DNA of 25,953 bases from a virus. Below, in pieces: positions 1,490-10,124 of this stretch. The position numbers and the translations under genes are program-made. How positions within the stretch are numbered: position 1 is the stretch's first letter; the number at the start of each line of letters is the position of its first letter. Under the pieces are notes generated by a model. It was not told the DNA's origin and did no database searches. It saw nothing but the letters and a program-made list of their open reading frames with translations. The stretch spans positions 1-25,953 of IMG/VR virus record IMGVR_UViG_3300042691_018653; one strand, 5' to 3'.

Positions 1490-2088
1490 AAGTCGCAATG
1501 GTCACGAGCGTCTCTGCTGACACGCCGTGGCAGTCGCTCACGACGCCCAACCACGCAGAGTGGTGCCACAGGCACGGTGCCACCTACATCGCTCGGCACT
1601 TGCCTTACGACCAGGCGGTGGCGGACTTCCTGTTCGTGCACGACCTGCTGCTCGACCATTTTGATCTGGTCTGGTGCCTGGACTCTGATGCGGTCGTTAC
1701 GAACATGCAGACGCGTCTCGACGACATCTCATTCCGGCCGGGCATGAACGTTTGTGAGGAAGGCCTTCACCCGTCATGCCCAATCAACTGCGGCAGCGTG
1801 GTCTGGACCAGCGGCAAGGAAAGCCAGACCGTGCTCCTCGCGCTTTCCGCAAAGGAGTCTGAATGGAGGCGGCTAACCTGGATCTGGCAGCAGTGGGTGG
1901 CTGAACGCCTAGCGAGATGGCCCCTCGAGGGCAGGGTGACTGTCCATCAGGCCAGAACGTTCAACTCGTGCCACCACGGCGACAGGTGCCTGTGGAGGCC
2001 TGGTGACTTCGTCTACCACCCATGCGGGATGCCGCACAGCATTCGCATGCAGTTCATCCGCGAGCAGATGGAGGCTGTTGTCCGATGA
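1486..2088 (+). CDS. Predicted GT-A glycosyltransferase
   Basis: A 200-residue protein starting at an ATGA overlap. The N-terminus (MKVAMVTSVSADTPW) and the core LVWCLDSDAVVTNM give a Rossmann-like GT-A layout. The DSD at residues 66-68 is the metal- and nucleotide-sugar-binding DxD motif. The layout resembles GT34-like (GMA12/MNN10) galactosyl/mannosyltransferases: NH2-strand, DxD, a CGSVVW acceptor-side strand and a late H-rich region. There is no signal peptide or membrane segment, so it should act in the cytoplasm. The next gene is a second, different glycosyltransferase joined by an ATGA overlap, so the two are probably translated together and may act on one glycan. Donor and acceptor cannot be told. 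Confidence 0.8.
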   Translation: MKVAMVTSVSADTPWQSLTTPNHAEWCHRHGATYIARHLPYDQAVADFLFVHDLLLDHFDLVWCLDSDAVVTNMQTRLDDISFRPGMNVCEEGLHPSCPINCGSVVWTSGKESQTVLLALSAKESEWRRLTWIWQQWVAERLARWPLEGRVTVHQARTFNSCHHGDRCLWRPGDFVYHPCGMPHSIRMQFIREQMEAVVR

Positions 2089-2972
2089 CTGTGTCAGTCA
2101 CCATCGACCTGACGGAGCACACGCCAGATTCCGTGCTGCCCGTCGATCCAGAGTTCGCGGACGATTATGCAGATGCGGTGCGTCGTGGGGAAATCCATGC
2201 CCGACAGCGGGATGTCGTATTCGTCGGCATGGCACGGCAGATAGGCGATATCCTGCCGCTGACAATCGAGCGCATCGAGCGCCTCGGGGAACAGTTCCGC
2301 AGCTGGTCAGCGGTGGTTGTCGAGAACGATTCAACCGATGACACCAAGGATGTGCTGCACGCGTGGCAGTCGCGTCGCCCTGGCCGTGTGGTCGCTGATT
2401 GCCGGGACTTGGGCCGGGAGCACCTGCATCTATTTGAGCGTGCGCGCGTGGAGCGCTACGCCGAGTACAGGAATCGATATAGAGACATCGCCGCCAGCCG
2501 ATTCCGAGACGCCGACACGGTCATCGCCCTCGACCTCGACGCATGGGGCGGCTGGAGTGACGCCGGCGTGCTGCACTCGGTTGCGATGCTCGCAGAAATG
2601 CCGTTGGCTGGCGCCATGGCCAGCACATCGCTCTACCGGGCAAAGACGGACGGCGGCGTACTGTGCTGGGGCCACTACGATTTGTGGGCGCTTCGGCTCT
2701 ACGGGATCCGGCCACGTTTCGATCCCTGGCAGCCACTTTGGCTTCCTCCGCCAGGTGCCGCTCCGATCCGGGTAGTGTCCGCGTTTGGTGGCCTGACCAC
2801 GTACAAGGCCGACGCGTTCTTCAATGCGACATACGCGAGCCACGATGGGGACATCGAGCACGTCGGCTTTCACCGATCCATGGCCGAAGAAGGCTGGCAT
2901 GTCTACCTGAATCCAGCATCGCGGACGCTCATGCACTGGCTGCACGGAATCCCAATTCCAGGCAAAGAGTGA
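2085..2972 (+). CDS. Predicted glycosyltransferase (GT2/GT69-like)
   Basis: This 295-residue protein starts at the ATG overlapping the previous stop; an upstream ATG at 2022 would bury 21 extra residues inside the previous gene. Two features indicate a GT-A fold. The VVVENDSTDDT segment (about 77-87) is the nucleotide-sugar loop seen in GT2 and CAP59-like mannosyltransferases. The DTVIALDLDAWGGW segment has the DxD at Asp150/Asp152. A later HDGDIEHVGFH segment could supply the catalytic base. There are no membrane segments. It pairs with the glycosyltransferase immediately upstream. The specific family is uncertain; glycosyltransferase as a class is well supported. Confidence 0.82.
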   Translation: MTVSVTIDLTEHTPDSVLPVDPEFADDYADAVRRGEIHARQRDVVFVGMARQIGDILPLTIERIERLGEQFRSWSAVVVENDSTDDTKDVLHAWQSRRPGRVVADCRDLGREHLHLFERARVERYAEYRNRYRDIAASRFRDADTVIALDLDAWGGWSDAGVLHSVAMLAEMPLAGAMASTSLYRAKTDGGVLCWGHYDLWALRLYGIRPRFDPWQPLWLPPPGAAPIRVVSAFGGLTTYKADAFFNATYASHDGDIEHVGFHRSMAEEGWHVYLNPASRTLMHWLHGIPIPGKE

Positions 2973-3428: not shown

Positions 3429-3716
3429 ATGACTACCGATGCAGAGCTCGACCAATACGGTGCAGGGCTGTCGATCTGGGAGCAGATCCGGCTTTTCCAG
3501 GAGTGGGCGCCGCTTGTCGGCTTTGCCCAACGCTTCACCAGCGAGCCCGATGCGTACAGGCGATCCGTAATCGTCGCCGAGGCCCTGGAATGGGTGGCGA
3601 GCAAGACCAAGAGCCAGCTCGATAACGAGCTCGTCACTCGCGTCGTGGCCATCGCCAAGACCCGCGAGGGTGAAGAGTTCATCCGCTGGGCGCTCAGCAA
3701 AGCGGGGGCTGCATGA
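3429..3716 (+). CDS. Small hypothetical protein opening the envelope cassette
   Basis: A 95-residue, mainly helical soluble protein. The ATG at 3429 is preceded by a good AGGAG at 8 bases; the open frame extends upstream but there it overlaps the HTH gene. No recognised domain, signal peptide or membrane helix is visible; hydrophobic positions in LSIWEQIRLFQEWAPLVGF suggest an amphipathic helix. It overlaps the following membrane-protein gene by ATGA, and so belongs to the run of genes from 3429 to 6613. I do not recognise it. Confidence 0.72.
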   Translation: MTTDAELDQYGAGLSIWEQIRLFQEWAPLVGFAQRFTSEPDAYRRSVIVAEALEWVASKTKSQLDNELVTRVVAIAKTREGEEFIRWALSKAGAA

Positions 3717-4327
3717 GTGCCGACGATGCGATTCGTGGCTGTGCGGCACTGGCGGCGCTGGTTCTCGCGTGCGCGCCTGCCGCGCCCATCGTGGTGGCCT
3801 GGGCAAGAGAGCACGCGCCGAAAGCGCGCGAAGCACTCAAGGGCTGGCCACAGTTCGCCCTCGCTGGCGTCCTGGCTTACGTGGCCATCTTTGGTGTGCC
3901 GCAGCTGCCGGCATTGACCCCCACGCCAGTCATCCCAGTTGTCGTTGTCCAGACTCCGAGCCCAGCCATGCAGGCAGCAGTGTCCGACGTTCATAAGGCG
4001 CTTCTCGGGGCTAACCCCGTGGACCGTGCGGTGTGGGCCCAACTCTGGTCAAACGCTGGCAAGGTCGTTGGCGGAGACGCCACCGACACCGAGGTCGTCT
4101 TCACAGACACGCGAGCACTGCGAGCATTCAACATCATCGCCCTTCGGATCGGCTGGCGTCGGCTCGGAGAAAACGCCCACGGGAAGTACCCAGGGCTGGG
4201 TGAGGCCACTGAGAGAGCCTTCGCCGGTGTGCTCGGGACCGACGTGCAGCCAGTCACCACAGACATTCGCAGCCGATACATCGAGCTCTGCAACGCTCTC
4301 GCGTGGTGTGGCGCAGGAAAGGGCTGA
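3713..4327 (+). CDS. Membrane-anchored hypothetical protein, two TM segments
   Basis: A 204-residue protein with two probable transmembrane helices: about residues 8-29 (Ala/Val/Leu-rich) and about 46-66 (FALAGVLAYVAIFGVPQLPA), separated by a short basic loop. A proline-rich stretch (LTPTPVIPVVVVQTPSPAM) then leads to a soluble alpha-helical C-terminal domain. Such a two-helix anchor plus soluble domain just before a peptidase gene could be a holin-like or spanin-like component, but it has no diagnostic motif. The N-terminal helices favour placement in the inner membrane. Function inferred from position only. Confidence 0.7.
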   Translation: MSADDAIRGCAALAALVLACAPAAPIVVAWAREHAPKAREALKGWPQFALAGVLAYVAIFGVPQLPALTPTPVIPVVVVQTPSPAMQAAVSDVHKALLGANPVDRAVWAQLWSNAGKVVGGDATDTEVVFTDTRALRAFNIIALRIGWRRLGENAHGKYPGLGEATERAFAGVLGTDVQPVTTDIRSRYIELCNALAWCGAGKG

Positions 4328-5232
4328 TGAGCGATCACCTGTTTGGTTACCAACCGAACCCGACCGGCACGGCGGCCTTCGTGGCTTCGCTGGGAGCGAG
4401 GTCGTTGGCGCAGGCCGGGCCGGACCTAGCCTTGGACGATCAGAGGGATGTGTTTCTGGGTCATGCCCTGCTCAAGTGCAGCCCGCGGTGGAAAAGACTC
4501 AACCAGCCAATCGGATCATGCGTCGGGTACGCGTGGGCAATGGCCGTTGACGTGCTTGCTGCGTGTGATGTGGTCCTGCGCGCAGAACCGGAGGCTTACG
4601 GTGGCGAGGTATTTCCGGCGAGCGTGTACGGTTTCTCGCGCGTGGAGGTTCGTGGCGGGCCGAACTACGGCGGCGACGGGTCTTATGGTGGGGCCGCCGG
4701 TAAAGCCGTGACGAAGTACGGCACACTGCACTTCGGCCAGGACTACGGCGGCACCGTCTATAACGCGACATCTGCTGAAATCGAGCGGGAGTGGGGACGC
4801 ACCGGCGTGCCTGACAAGCTCGAGCCCTATGCCGCCGAGCACAAGGTCGCCCAGGTCACACTCTGCACGGACTTCGTGCAGGCCGCCACAGCGATCCAGA
4901 ACGCCTACCCGGTGGCAGTCTGCTCGATGCGCGGCTTCGACATGACGCTACGGGACGGCGTGCTGACTCCCAGTGGACGCTGGGCACACGCGATGCTTTT
5001 CTGCGGCCTGAGGTGGAAGCCAAAGCCGCAGCTCTATCTGGCCAACAGCTGGGGCGACTGCTATCGGGGCACGTACGACGAGACACTGCCGCCCGTGTTC
5101 CGGCGGTCTGGGGGGTGGGTCGATGCCGACGTGTGCACATCCATGCTCAAAGGCGAAGACTCGTTTGCTCTGGCGGGATTCCAGGGCTTCAAGCCTCGCT
5201 CTCTCCCGGACTGGACTGGGGGTGTGCTGTGA
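4327..5232 (+). CDS. Papain-fold (C1A-like) cysteine peptidase
   Basis: A 301-residue protein with the full papain catalytic layout in the right order. Gln60 (oxyanion hole) and Cys65 lie in NQPIGSCVGYAWAM, His221 in GRWAHAMLFCG, and Asn240 in LYLANSWGDCYRG, which is the classic NSWG motif. The ATG overlaps the upstream stop (TGATG), giving a start at MSDHLFGYQPN. No clear signal peptide or long pro-domain precedes the catalytic Cys, so export would need help (holin) or the protein acts inside the cell or on the virion. It sits between small membrane proteins, so a cell-wall-lytic endolysin-like role is one hypothesis. Processing of host or virion proteins is another. The peptidase fold is strongly supported; the substrate is not. 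Confidence 0.88.
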   Translation: MSDHLFGYQPNPTGTAAFVASLGARSLAQAGPDLALDDQRDVFLGHALLKCSPRWKRLNQPIGSCVGYAWAMAVDVLAACDVVLRAEPEAYGGEVFPASVYGFSRVEVRGGPNYGGDGSYGGAAGKAVTKYGTLHFGQDYGGTVYNATSAEIEREWGRTGVPDKLEPYAAEHKVAQVTLCTDFVQAATAIQNAYPVAVCSMRGFDMTLRDGVLTPSGRWAHAMLFCGLRWKPKPQLYLANSWGDCYRGTYDETLPPVFRRSGGWVDADVCTSMLKGEDSFALAGFQGFKPRSLPDWTGGVL

Positions 5233-5483
5233 AGGCGACCACTGCTTTCGGCGCGTTCGTCCTGGCGGTGGTTTTCGCGGCCGGAGATCGCCAGCCATCG
5301 CTTGACGCTGAGCTCGCCTGCGAAGCGGCGAGAGAGATCGTGCGGCTGCAGTCATCCCCTGCCCCAGCACCACCAAAGCCCAACCCTGGCAAGTGCGTCC
5401 GCTGCAACGGCACTGGCAAGGTGAAAAGCGGGGACGGGATCGCCGTGATCCCCTGCCCCGACTGCGACGGAGGCAAGAAATGA
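5229..5483 (+). CDS. Exported small protein with DnaJ-type zinc knuckle
   Basis: An 84-residue protein starting at GTG within a GTGA overlap. The first about 18 residues (MKATTAFGAFVLAVVFAAG) form a signal peptide or N-terminal anchor. A Pro/Ala-rich linker leads to CVRCNGTGK, then CPDCDGGKK: one pair of DnaJ-like CxxCxGxG/CxxCxGG knuckles expected to bind a single zinc ion. There is no J domain or substrate-binding domain, so this is not a DnaJ. It is probably periplasmic or membrane-tethered. The tight coupling to the desaturase gene downstream and the peptidase upstream suggests a shared role; the specific function is unknown. Confidence 0.8.
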   Translation: MKATTAFGAFVLAVVFAAGDRQPSLDAELACEAAREIVRLQSSPAPAPPKPNPGKCVRCNGTGKVKSGDGIAVIPCPDCDGGKK

Positions 5484-6007
5484 GCCACGTCCTGTACTTC
5501 GCCTCTGCATGGATCGCCGCAGAGCTGCTGTCGGGCGCTGTCCACTGGTGGGAGGACAGGTACGGCAACCCTGATTGGCCTGTGCTTGGAAAGTACGTTG
5601 TCCGACCAAACATCGAGCATCATTCTAATCAGACTGCGTTCACCAAGGGCAGCTACCTAGAACGCAACTGGACGGTCATCGCCCCGTCGCTCACGGCCGC
5701 CGCGTTCGCTGCGGCCTTCGGCCAGTGGTGGCTGATGCTCGTCGCGCTGATCGTCAGCCAGGGCAACGAGGTCCACTGCTGGAGTCACCAGCGGTGCAGT
5801 CGGCCCATCCGAGGCCTGCAACTTCTCGGCGTTCTCCAAAGCCCTGAGCAGCACGCAAAACACCACGCTCAGCCATTCGACCGCAACTACTGCGTCATGA
5901 CAGACGCCATCAATCCAGTGCTGCAAGCAGTTCGGTTTTGGCAGGCGCTGGAGTGGTGCGTGGCGTTGTTTGGTGTTCTCCCTCGAGCCGAACGGAGAAT
6001 CGCATGA
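5480..6007 (+). CDS. Kua/CarF/FAD4-family lipid desaturase-like membrane protein
   Basis: A 175-residue integral membrane protein; the ATG at 5480 overlaps the previous stop, and the upstream extension of the frame lies within the zinc-knuckle gene. It matches the lipid desaturase family that includes plasmanylethanolamine desaturase (TMEM189/PEDS1, CarF) and plant FAD4. All eight conserved histidines are present in family spacing: His22 (SGAVHWWEDRYG), His47-His48 (PNIEHHSNQTAF), His99 and His103 (EVHCWSH), and His125, His128-His129 (SPEQHAKHHAQPFDRNYCV). The FWQALEW end also fits. Hydrophobic helices lie around 5-21 and 66-95. The histidines would hold a di-iron centre for dehydrogenation of an acyl or alkyl chain. 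Its presence in a phage cassette of envelope-facing genes is unusual; the substrate is inferred from family only. Confidence 0.88.
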   Translation: MSHVLYFASAWIAAELLSGAVHWWEDRYGNPDWPVLGKYVVRPNIEHHSNQTAFTKGSYLERNWTVIAPSLTAAAFAAAFGQWWLMLVALIVSQGNEVHCWSHQRCSRPIRGLQLLGVLQSPEQHAKHHAQPFDRNYCVMTDAINPVLQAVRFWQALEWCVALFGVLPRAERRIA

Positions 6008-6321
6008 GCCGAGCCGACCTCGAGGCATACGTCTGGCAACGGCTGTCAGCACGACGCTGGGCTGTCGGCCGTGCTGCCGTGGACCGCGTCACGCGTAGGG
6101 TGCTGCGGCGTTGGGAGCGTGAACCAAACCTAAAGGTGATTGCCAGCAGCGTCGAGGAGCAGACGAGGCAGGACGCACAGCTCGGCGTCATCGCGTCATG
6201 GTTGCTGGCGGCGCTGATCAGCGAGATCGTCCGTGCCGTGTGGGAGTGGTGGAGAAAGAGCTACGCCAATCACTGCCTGATCTTCGGCTATCAGCGGGAG
6301 TTGCCAGATGACGACGAATGA
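6004..6321 (+). CDS. Small single-TM hypothetical protein
   Basis: A 105-residue protein starting at an ATGA overlap with the desaturase gene. The N-terminal half is strongly basic (WQRLSARRWAVGRAAVDRVT, RRVLRRWE). One transmembrane helix lies near residues 65-82 (VIASWLLAALISEIVRAVW), followed by a short Trp/aromatic-rich tail that ends DDDE. The basic N-terminus suggests it stays cytoplasmic. Size, single helix and position fit a holin-like or lysis-accessory protein, but no family motif is visible. Its 3' end overlaps the next gene by 14 bases. Confidence 0.68.
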   Translation: MSRADLEAYVWQRLSARRWAVGRAAVDRVTRRVLRRWEREPNLKVIASSVEEQTRQDAQLGVIASWLLAALISEIVRAVWEWWRKSYANHCLIFGYQRELPDDDE

Positions 6322-6613
6322 CGAGCCGAAAGGTTTTCTTGACGTCGCGCTCAAGATTGGGGAAAGGCTCGGGGTTCCGATCCTGATTCTTGCAGCCGTG
6401 TTTCTGATGGCCCGCGAGGCAGGCATGGCACTGTATTCGGGTGCGGTCGTGCCTTTGGTCAAGGCTCACGGCGACTTCCTCGAGGCAACGCAGCACACAC
6501 TCGAGGAAATCGGCGACACCCAGAGGCAGCAGGCCACGACCATGCAGGAAATCGTGGTTGGGCAGAGGGAAATTACTGCCATCCTCGAGGCACGGGAGGA
6601 GGTGAGGAACTAA
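6308..6613 (+). CDS. Small membrane protein with coiled coil (holin/spanin-like candidate)
   Basis: A 101-residue protein. The ATG at 6308 has GGGAG about 7 bases upstream inside the previous gene. Residues about 23-40 (VPILILAAVFLMAREAGMA) form one transmembrane helix. The rest is a long helix with coiled-coil character rich in Gln, Glu and Thr (EATQHTLEEIGDTQRQQATT). One anchor plus a long coiled coil is the layout of inner-membrane spanins and some phage holin-like proteins, but neither is proven. It is the last gene of the envelope cassette; the next gene begins the appendage block with a TAATG overlap. Confidence 0.68.
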   Translation: MTTNDEPKGFLDVALKIGERLGVPILILAAVFLMAREAGMALYSGAVVPLVKAHGDFLEATQHTLEEIGDTQRQQATTMQEIVVGQREITAILEAREEVRN

Positions 6614-6933: not shown

Positions 6934-7535
6934 GCGACGTAAACGTGTCCGGCAACAACCCGCCTTCAGTGAGTGTCAGCGGCAACACCGTGTCGGTGTC
7001 TGTCTCGTCCGGCGTTGGTCCGCAAGGCCCTGCCGGGGCCGGCGGAGTGACCACGCTCCAGGGCCTCGCCGGGGCGCTGACTCTCGCCGCCGTCGGCGGC
7101 TCGTGGTCGGCGTCCGGCTCGACGATCACGCTGACCGTGACCACGGCCGGGGCTGTCGCATGGGCAGACATCACCGGCAAGCCGACGTTTGCCGCCGTCG
7201 CCACCACAGGGGCTTATTCTGACCTCACTGGCACACCCGCGGCATACTCGCTGCCAACGGCCTCCGCGTCCACGCTCGGAGGCGTGATCGTTGGTGCGGG
7301 GCTGTCTGTGGCCTCCGGCACCGTATCGGTGAGCATCGGCAGCACAGCCGGCACGGTCTGCGCCGGCGACGATGCCAGGTTGTCGAACGCCAGGACGCCG
7401 ACCGGCGCGGCTGGTGGCGATCTCACCGGCAGCTACCCGAATCCAACCATCGCGGCCGGTGCGGTGACGGAGGCCGATCTCAACGACTCTGCCCGCATCC
7501 TGATCTTCCACCCCTTCCTTCTCGGCGGGATGTGA
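6930..7535 (+). CDS. Tail fibre-like protein
   Basis: A 201-residue low-complexity structural protein starting at GTG in a GTGA overlap. It carries a very short collagen-like GPQGPAGAGG, then fibre repeats of the type AWADITGKPTFAAVATTGAY and SDLTGTPA, then STLGGVIVGAGLSV. The AGDDARLSNARTPTGAAGGD and GSYPNPTIAAGAVTEADLN repeat typical of phage tail fibres follows. These motifs form trimeric beta-helical shafts. The C-terminus (FHPFLLGGM) is short, so a receptor-binding tip is not obvious here and may be supplied by the downstream genes. Role in host recognition or as a fibre shaft is inferred from the repeat family. Confidence 0.85.
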   Translation: MSDVNVSGNNPPSVSVSGNTVSVSVSSGVGPQGPAGAGGVTTLQGLAGALTLAAVGGSWSASGSTITLTVTTAGAVAWADITGKPTFAAVATTGAYSDLTGTPAAYSLPTASASTLGGVIVGAGLSVASGTVSVSIGSTAGTVCAGDDARLSNARTPTGAAGGDLTGSYPNPTIAAGAVTEADLNDSARILIFHPFLLGGM

Positions 7536-8734: not shown

Positions 8735-9174
8735 GCGACTCGGCATGGTTCGCGGTCGTTGACCCTGCGGGCACGCTCGTCAGCCTCGGCTCCGTCGTGG
8801 CGTCGCCGCTGCCCGCCGGTCTGGACGCTGTCCAGCTGTCGCCCGCCGACGCCGCCGCGATCCGCGAGGGCCATGCGTCGTGGGACGCGGAGACGCGGTG
8901 CGTGGTGATCCTCCCGCCGCCCGTCCCTGTGTTTGTCACCCGCTGGCAATTCCGGCGCTGGCTCGTCGATCACGCGATCACCCCGGAGAGCGTCGAGGCC
9001 ATGATCGCGGCGACGATCTCCGACCCGCTGGAGCGTGCCCGCGCCCTCGTGGACTGGCGAGACGGGCCGATTGTACGGCGGGACCACCCGCTTCTCGTGC
9101 CGATGGCTGCGGCGCTCGGGCTCACCGAGACGGCCGTCGATACAGCGTTCCGCGAGGCGGCGGAGTACGCATGA
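8731..9174 (+). CDS. Tail fibre-associated protein with phage C-terminal helical domain
   Basis: A 147-residue protein. The ATG at 8731 gives an ATGA overlap; the open frame extends upstream only inside the previous gene. The N-terminal half is a small strand-rich domain ([31 protein letters not shown]). The C-terminal half matches a helical domain often found in phage tail-fibre neighbours: [20 protein letters not shown], then [20 protein letters not shown] and [12 protein letters not shown]. Its function is not established; fibre assembly chaperone or structural linker are possible. It overlaps the gmd start by ATGA. Confidence 0.72.
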
Positions 9175-10124
9175 AAGCACTCATCACCGGAATCACCGGC
9201 CAGGATGGTTCGTACCTCGCGGAGTTGCTTCTGGCGAAGGGGTACGAGGTGCATGGCATCGTGCGCCGGTCATCGACCAGCGGAACGGGCCGCATCGACC
9301 ATCTTGCGGGTGGCGTCGTGCTGCACGACGGTGACCTGAACGACGGTGCCGGCTTGGCCCGAATCGTGCGGTCCGTTTCCCCGACCGAGGTCTACAACCT
9401 CGCCGCCCAGAGCCATGTTCACGTGAGCTTTGCGCAGCCGGCATACACGGCCGCGACGACCGGGGTGGGCACGCTCCTGCTGCTCGACGCGGTGCGAGAA
9501 CACGCACCCGCTGCCCGCTTCTACCAAGCCTCGTCGTCGGAGATGTTCGGTCAGGTGGCCGAGACTCCCCAGCGTGAGTCCACGCCATTCCATCCGCGCT
9601 CGCCCTACGGCTGTGCGAAGCTCTACGCCCACTGGATCACGGTCAACTACCGGGAGTCTTACGGACTTCACGCGTCGTGCGGCATTTTGTTCAACCACGA
9701 GAGCCCACGCCGCGGCGAGGAGTTTGTCACCCGCAAGATAGCCAAGGCCGTGGCCCGAATTGCCAATGGCAAACAGCTGCACCTTAAGCTGGGCAACCTT
9801 GATGCGCGGCGTGACTGGGGTTTCGCCGGCGACTACGTCAAGGCGATGTGGCTGATGCTCCAGCAGGACAAGCCAGACGACTACGTCATCGCCACGGGCG
9901 AGACGCACACCGTGCGGTCGTTCGTCTCAGCGGCCTTCGAGCACGTTGGCATGGACTGGAAGGACCACGTCATCATCGACGAGCAGCTGTACAGGCCTGC
10001 CGAGGTGGATCTGCTCCTAGGGGACGCATCGAAGGCAAAGAAGGCACTGGGGTGGAGTCCATCCATGACATTCGTGCAGCTTGTGCACAGCATGGTCGAT
10101 GCCGAAATGGCTTCAGAGTGCTGA
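9171..10124 (+). CDS. gmd: GDP-mannose 4,6-dehydratase
   Basis: Gmd converts GDP-D-mannose to GDP-4-keto-6-deoxy-D-mannose, the branch point to GDP-fucose, GDP-rhamnose and related sugars. The 317-residue protein is an extended SDR with the NADP-binding [15 protein letters not shown] (7-21) and the Gmd-specific [13 protein letters not shown]. The catalytic Ser122/Glu124 lie in SSSEMFG, Tyr146 and Lys150 in [48 protein letters not shown] and [11 protein letters not shown] follow. Length and motifs indicate a complete, probably active enzyme. No GDP-fucose synthase-type reductase is visible in this window, so the next step would rely on host enzymes or genes outside. It ends the fibre block, which suggests supply of a deoxysugar for the predicted glycosyltransferases. 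Confidence 0.96.

Follow-up and report, generated by a model that had tools for sequence, protein, structure and literature searches.

A papain-fold peptidase cassette conserved among phages associated with Planctomycetota, a candidate module for host exit

The described systems closest to the locus studied here are the canonical and signal-anchor-release (SAR) lysis cassettes, composed of holin, endolysin and spanins, the cysteine proteinases of type C1A, and PeiW and PeiP, the pseudomurein endoisopeptidases of methanogen viruses (cited in PMC10318531); one gene of the locus falls with the PF10520 desaturases. The locus is a block of seven genes (g08–g14, positions 3429–6613) in IMG/VR record IMGVR_UViG_3300042691_018653. 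The stretch analysed (the window; 25,953 bp) is a virus fragment and not a complete genome. Six of the seven genes (all but g12) form a conserved module around a predicted papain-like cysteine peptidase, g10, and the block may serve in host exit (lysis), fitted to the envelope of planctomycetes. In the literature searched we found no account of phage exit from planctomycetes, whose envelope make-up is still debated, and no description of the cassette, which subscription journals could hold.

All seven genes exist on one strand, with neighbours overlapping by 1 to 14 bases (Table 1); start/stop overlaps of this kind are a pattern typical of translational coupling. The seven overlapping genes proposed at these coordinates in an earlier note on this DNA were thus verified, as were the types assigned to them (two transmembrane (TM) segments in g09, a knuckle in g11, PF10520 in g12, one TM each in g13 and g14). 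The order RusA, glycosyltransferase, g07, g08, g09, g10, g11, g13, g14 recurs across about 80 neighbourhoods of peptidase loci. A search of other phages for the same ordered set, as proposed in the earlier note, found the six core genes in this order in about 50 further contigs, placing the arrangement far beyond chance. For unbiased sampling, relatives were also chosen via the terminase rather than the peptidase, with at least 3.7 kb upstream required (n = 18). The peptidase was present in 18/18 of these and g09 in 17/18 (the exception is truncated at the contig end), and the desaturase g12 in 0/18; the peptidase module is therefore core and no moron. The carriers include phages with unrelated packaging and head genes, namely those with the window-type terminase, G731 with a lambda-type GpA terminase and portal, and a Blastopirellula element (see below); all of them, and prophages as well, keep the peptidase together with a g09-like gene and with small partners that are membrane-bound or exported.

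The peptidase was assigned by structure. Neither Pfam, PHROGs nor NCBIfam gave a usable match to g10, the C1 models of Pfam and NCBIfam included, and the peptidase and desaturase profiles searched by sequence against the PDB were without match. An AlphaFold model built from seven family members (pLDDT 79, pTM 0.87) adopts a papain fold, and its top PDB match in Foldseek was xylellain (3ois, E-value 2e-9). Alignment of the two with VIA-align gave a Z-score of 20.3 over 239 residues at 3.2 Å, and the best structural matches were C1A proteinases (xylellain, cathepsins; Z 16–20). In 84 peptidase sequences the predicted oxyanion Gln and the catalytic Cys, His and Asn are conserved (Q60 99%, C65 99%, H221 100%, N240 93%). 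By fold and residues, g10 is thus predicted to be a papain-like cysteine peptidase of C1A type; since sequence matches to C1 models were absent, the filing under C1A uses these two features only. The papain fold named in the earlier note was recovered by structure prediction. The family has at least 530 candidate loci in viral contigs; it is not in PHROGs, and a tblastn search with two members found it in 0 of 50,697 GenBank phage records. In a test confined to the N-terminal part of the peptidase, an N-terminal TM was present in 0/61 members of the window-type lineage and a TM anchor in 21/22 members of a sister lineage. A hydrophobicity signal suggesting an N-terminal TM in close peptidases was rejected, as it corresponds to the catalytic helix. 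The two export modes, without an anchor and with the enzyme's own, resemble those of holin-dependent canonical endolysins and of signal-anchored endolysins, and they argue for a target outside the cytoplasm.

The partners were assessed at the peptidase loci. In 92/101 loci the gene immediately preceding the peptidase matches the g09 profile, suggesting that g09 is its obligate partner. The gene is split in two in some relatives, and a g09-like protein of prophages L159 and L160 has a lipobox. The AF2 model of g09 had a pLDDT of 83.7 (above 90 in the C-terminal domain), and a fold search with it gave no significant PDB match. Homologues of g08 stand immediately 5' of g09/g10 in most close relatives (56/101 peptidase loci by profile), g13 was matched in 62/101 loci, prophages L159 and L160 among them, and g14 in 56/101. 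A TM plus coiled-coil gene resembling g14, as judged by eye, was seen in prophages L160 and L161, and other small TM proteins surround the prophage cassettes. For g11, homologues were counted by BLAST at 55/83 peptidase loci; this count was preferred over that of an iterative profile (86/101), some matches of which were out of frame. The g11 relatives are lipoproteins or linked to thioredoxin: the position downstream of the peptidase is taken by a zinc-knuckle protein, by a thioredoxin-like exported protein (in prophages; Pfam Thioredoxin_7 5.5e-7, Thioredoxin 4.6e-9) or by a knuckle protein with a thioredoxin-like CxxC stretch. In L159, and similarly in L160, the knuckle is fused to such a stretch (by eye), and in L163 a separate thioredoxin gene follows. 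These fused and adjacent features tie the knuckle to thiol chemistry.

In line with the earlier note, which had seen no classical lysozyme, amidase or annotated holin, scans of the window for all three kinds of family gave no match. The search was extended to five near-complete relatives of 38–45 kb (G002, G720, G724, G725 and G731, three of them besides G002 being of 38–39 kb), in whose unassigned proteins, in G002 the non-structural ones, no muralytic Pfam family was found. G002 (38.4 kb) is practically a whole genome, because its contig ends lie between two genes that adjoin in the window. Amidase_2, Phage_lysozyme and Peptidase_M15_4 were found in 0/25 records of peptidase phages, with the positive controls detected. 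Amidase_2 matches in four planctomycete genomes lie distant from the cassettes and presumably represent host genes. Thus no standard endolysin was seen elsewhere, and the six core genes do co-occur in relatives, the opposite of what the earlier note had named as refuting its proposal. None of the small TM proteins of the cassette matches a holin family. g14 has the layout of an i-spanin (TM and coiled-coil), and relatives of g11 and g09 have lipobox-like N-termini; no spanin family was matched. Because a muralytic enzyme, its defining feature, was not found, the block was not filed as a classical lysis cassette.

A scan of genomes with the peptidase profile matched contigs of Planctomycetota, including Blastopirellula marina DSM 3645; one contig of a metagenome-assembled genome (MAG), L153, carries g06, g07, a g09-like gene and the peptidase. 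In drawn samples, 11/392 Planctomycetota genomes had the peptidase versus 0/298 genomes of a control phylum (Fisher p 0.002), the latter number setting aside the centre MAG, whose matches sit on tiny contigs. Peptidase-bearing phage genes on two tiny contigs (C136, C312) of an alphaproteobacterial MAG (G026) are probably binning contamination. The association points to a tailed phage of Planctomycetota as the window virus. Three genomes (L169–L171 in B. marina DSM 3645, L172–L174 in G365, L175–L177 in G147) share a 26-kb head-tail block with the peptidase cassette, located at one and the same chromosomal position. Its genes have a synonymous divergence (dS) equal to that of flanking host genes and a low ratio of nonsynonymous to synonymous divergence (dN/dS; 0.069/0.515 for the peptidase), and the module is under purifying selection. 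Integrase, replication and lysogeny genes were not seen in the element, which is vertically inherited and is a candidate gene transfer agent (GTA) of planctomycetes.

The reading that we favour, at about even chances, is that the block is a host-exit cassette adapted to the envelope of planctomycetes, in which the peptidase acts as the lytic enzyme. The small membrane proteins (g09, possibly g13 and g14) would form openings in the envelope or bridge it. g10, itself cytosolic, would get past the inner membrane in the manner of canonical endolysins, and in the sister lineage the peptidase would rely on a signal anchor of its own, as SAR endolysins do. Once across, g10 would cleave structural envelope proteins or envelope peptides, and the exported zinc-knuckle or thioredoxin-like partner would keep thiols reduced or open disulfides. 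Planctomycete envelopes have been described as SDS-resistant, Pro/Cys-rich protein stabilized by disulfides (PMC3035269, PMC2754498), which would make a peptidase with a thiol-active partner sensible. Lysis, the substrate, the redox role and the holin and spanin assignments are what we infer. A more specific version, put forward tentatively as a possibility well short of even, is a lysis that spares peptidoglycan: membrane proteins would release a cysteine peptidase that cuts wall proteins, with the exported knuckle or thioredoxin-like partner reducing the disulfides of the protein envelope. The lysis or envelope module of the earlier note thus stands in part. In its favour are the six conserved genes, the five near-complete relatives without a recognized muralytic enzyme and a peptidase that is either cytosolic beside membrane proteins or self-anchored; the desaturase drops out of the core.

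Several points weigh against an exit role of this kind. Planctomycetes possess peptidoglycan (PMC4432595; the passage of PMC5945725 that cites Jeske 2015 says the same), and an enzyme that cuts only proteins may therefore be insufficient. Divergent or novel lysins could escape detection by Pfam, and the lack of Amidase_2 is unspecific, because desaturase phages without the peptidase miss it too. Finally, the cassette adjoins fibre or head genes in some phages, which would suit a virion role as well.

The alternative that survives best, though itself unlikely, keeps the exit role and makes g10 an endopeptidase of peptidoglycan peptides, an unusual endolysin working by ordinary logic. The peptidoglycan of planctomycetes would provide its substrate, papain-fold NlpC/P60 and CHAP enzymes do cleave peptidoglycan (PMC10318531), and some phage matches of the g10 model in BFVD are annotated as N-acetylmuramidase or peptidoglycan binding-like. 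However, the top structural matches are the C1A proteinases, and Pfam scans recognized no wall-binding domain in the peptidase. A role in entry, with the peptidase in or on the particle cutting a surface protein layer during infection, we consider unlikely. The window block directly precedes the fibre genes, and in five loci (L033, L038, L132, L139, L140) the peptidase sits between the head protease and major capsid genes; in G001, however, the cassette is about 30 kb away from the virion genes and in L144 it adjoins an integrase, the sister peptidases have N-terminal TM anchors, unlike virion proteins, and the partner genes encode membrane or exported proteins. Quite improbable is superinfection exclusion or lysogenic conversion, in which the lysogen would have its envelope remodelled by a membrane-anchored peptidase. 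An integrase in G002, L144 and G415 marks several carriers as temperate, and exclusion systems typically use membrane-anchored proteins, but the module belongs to the core (18/18), lies within the late-gene strand and is under purifying selection in the GTA-like element without visible lysogeny genes. PADLOC gave no match, and identity as a defence system was rejected on the same result. The earlier note's proposal that lipid modification and proteolysis act jointly, with desaturase and peptidase as one functional lysis unit, is highly improbable and largely refuted as a general rule: the desaturases of the pairs occupy two distinct positions in their tree, and the pairing may thus have arisen repeatedly, but near relatives keep the remaining module without the desaturase, most desaturase loci lack the peptidase, and the desaturase was found in none of the terminase-chosen relatives and in only four of about 83 peptidase loci.

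g12 matches Pfam PF10520 (Lipid_desat) at 6.5e-39 and 134.2 bits (gathering cut-off 26.4), and is a predicted desaturase carried as accessory cargo, an optional insertion. The nearest relatives, L057 and L058 (peptidase 89% identical), have g08–g11, g13 and g14, and the desaturase was found neither at their cassette nor in the remainder of the records. The desaturase as core of the module was rejected on its absence from these two and from the terminase-chosen relatives. It adjoins the peptidase in the window, L002, L033 and L038; its relatives occupy 55 viral loci. In most other relatives, without the desaturase, the coding ends of g11 and g13 overlap directly. At 7154–7255 in L058 a 33-codon TM open reading frame (ORF) stands where the window has the desaturase and begins with the same five residues (MSHVL); it is perhaps a remnant of the desaturase, or the desaturase took over the start or insertion site of the ORF. 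The placing of the mouse PEDS1 numbers used below on the alignment relies on the known PEDS1 sequence and is backed by the host copies. All 26 phage desaturases have the eight conserved His and the Asp equivalent to D100, with Asn at Phe118 and Gly or Leu at the ninth His (H131), versus Phe118 in 11/11 and His131 in 8/11 of the planctomycete chromosomal copies. In PEDS1, the His and Asp are essential and Phe118 and His131 are needed for plasmalogen-desaturase activity (PMC8960569, PMC9131029). The match of g12 to the NCBIfam equivalog NF045946 was 87.7 bits, below the cut-off of 500, and g12 is probably no plasmalogen enzyme. Phage and host copies split in the desaturase tree with 100/100 support; capture from present-day planctomycete hosts is not supported, given this split and the two differing functional residues. 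A single-desaturase query against the genome contigs gave no match. In a large freshwater phage group (L007, L021, L029 and similar) a PF10520 desaturase lies in the tail region and the peptidase is missing; the group's exit genes are likewise unrecognized, and the longer records examined have no Amidase_2.

GenBank phages hold no close DNA relative of the window, whose late region is siphovirus-like. Its genes run in the order RusA resolvase, glycosyltransferase-like gene, seven-gene block, fibre genes, epimerase, HNH, terminase, portal, head protease, capsid, connectors and tape measure; the gene after g14 begins at 6613. The block is flanked by a glycosyltransferase-like gene, kept upstream of the cassette in 44/83 loci, and a nucleotide-sugar epimerase.

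Table 1. Coordinates of the seven genes of the block and two flanking genes in the window.
Gene	Position	Strand	Features
Glycosyltransferase-like	2022–2972		Flanks the block
g08	3429–3716	+	95 aa, without TM; conserved first gene of the cassette
g09	3713–4327	+	Two N-terminal hydrophobic segments, Pro-rich linker, helical soluble domain
g10	4327–5232	+	Papain-fold (C1A-like) cysteine peptidase; predicted catalytic Q60, C65, H221, N240
g11	5229–5483	+	GTG start; small, predicted exported, signal-like N-terminus; zinc knuckle CxxCxGxG...CxxC
g12	5480–6007	+	Predicted PF10520 membrane lipid desaturase; accessory insertion
g13	6004–6321	+	Single C-terminal TM (58–76), then Trp/Arg-rich segment
g14	6308–6613	+	N-terminal TM (17–35), coiled-coil-like tail
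Nucleotide-sugar epimerase	8880–10124		Flanks the block

A widespread module in which a papain-fold peptidase replaces a recognized endolysin offers a concrete, testable candidate for phage exit. The peptidase module may also be used as a marker for planctomycete phages, and it would supply enzymes acting on planctomycete envelopes.

Compared with known PF10520 desaturases (PEDS1/TMEM189, CarF, plant FAD4), proteins of the g12 type share the eight histidines and the essential aspartate; the phage proteins differ from PEDS1/CarF by Asn for F118 and Gly/Leu for H131, in a clade apart from the planctomycete copies. With the C1A proteinases (xylellain, cathepsins) g10 shares the fold and the Gln-Cys-His-Asn set, and it differs in its low identity (11–16%), in being phage-encoded, in lacking a Pfam Peptidase_C1 match and in having a membrane partner gene. 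Unlike the canonical and SAR lysis cassettes, the block has no muralytic enzyme that we could find and no holin or spanin match, and it combines a papain-fold hydrolase with a thiol-redox or zinc-knuckle partner; like them, it packs a single hydrolase and several small membrane proteins into a compact operon, and the hydrolase has an N-terminal membrane anchor in one lineage and none in the other. From PeiW and PeiP, g10, whose role is predicted, differs in family (closest to C1A) and in substrate; the likeness to them is that of a viral cysteine peptidase directed against a host wall other than ordinary murein.

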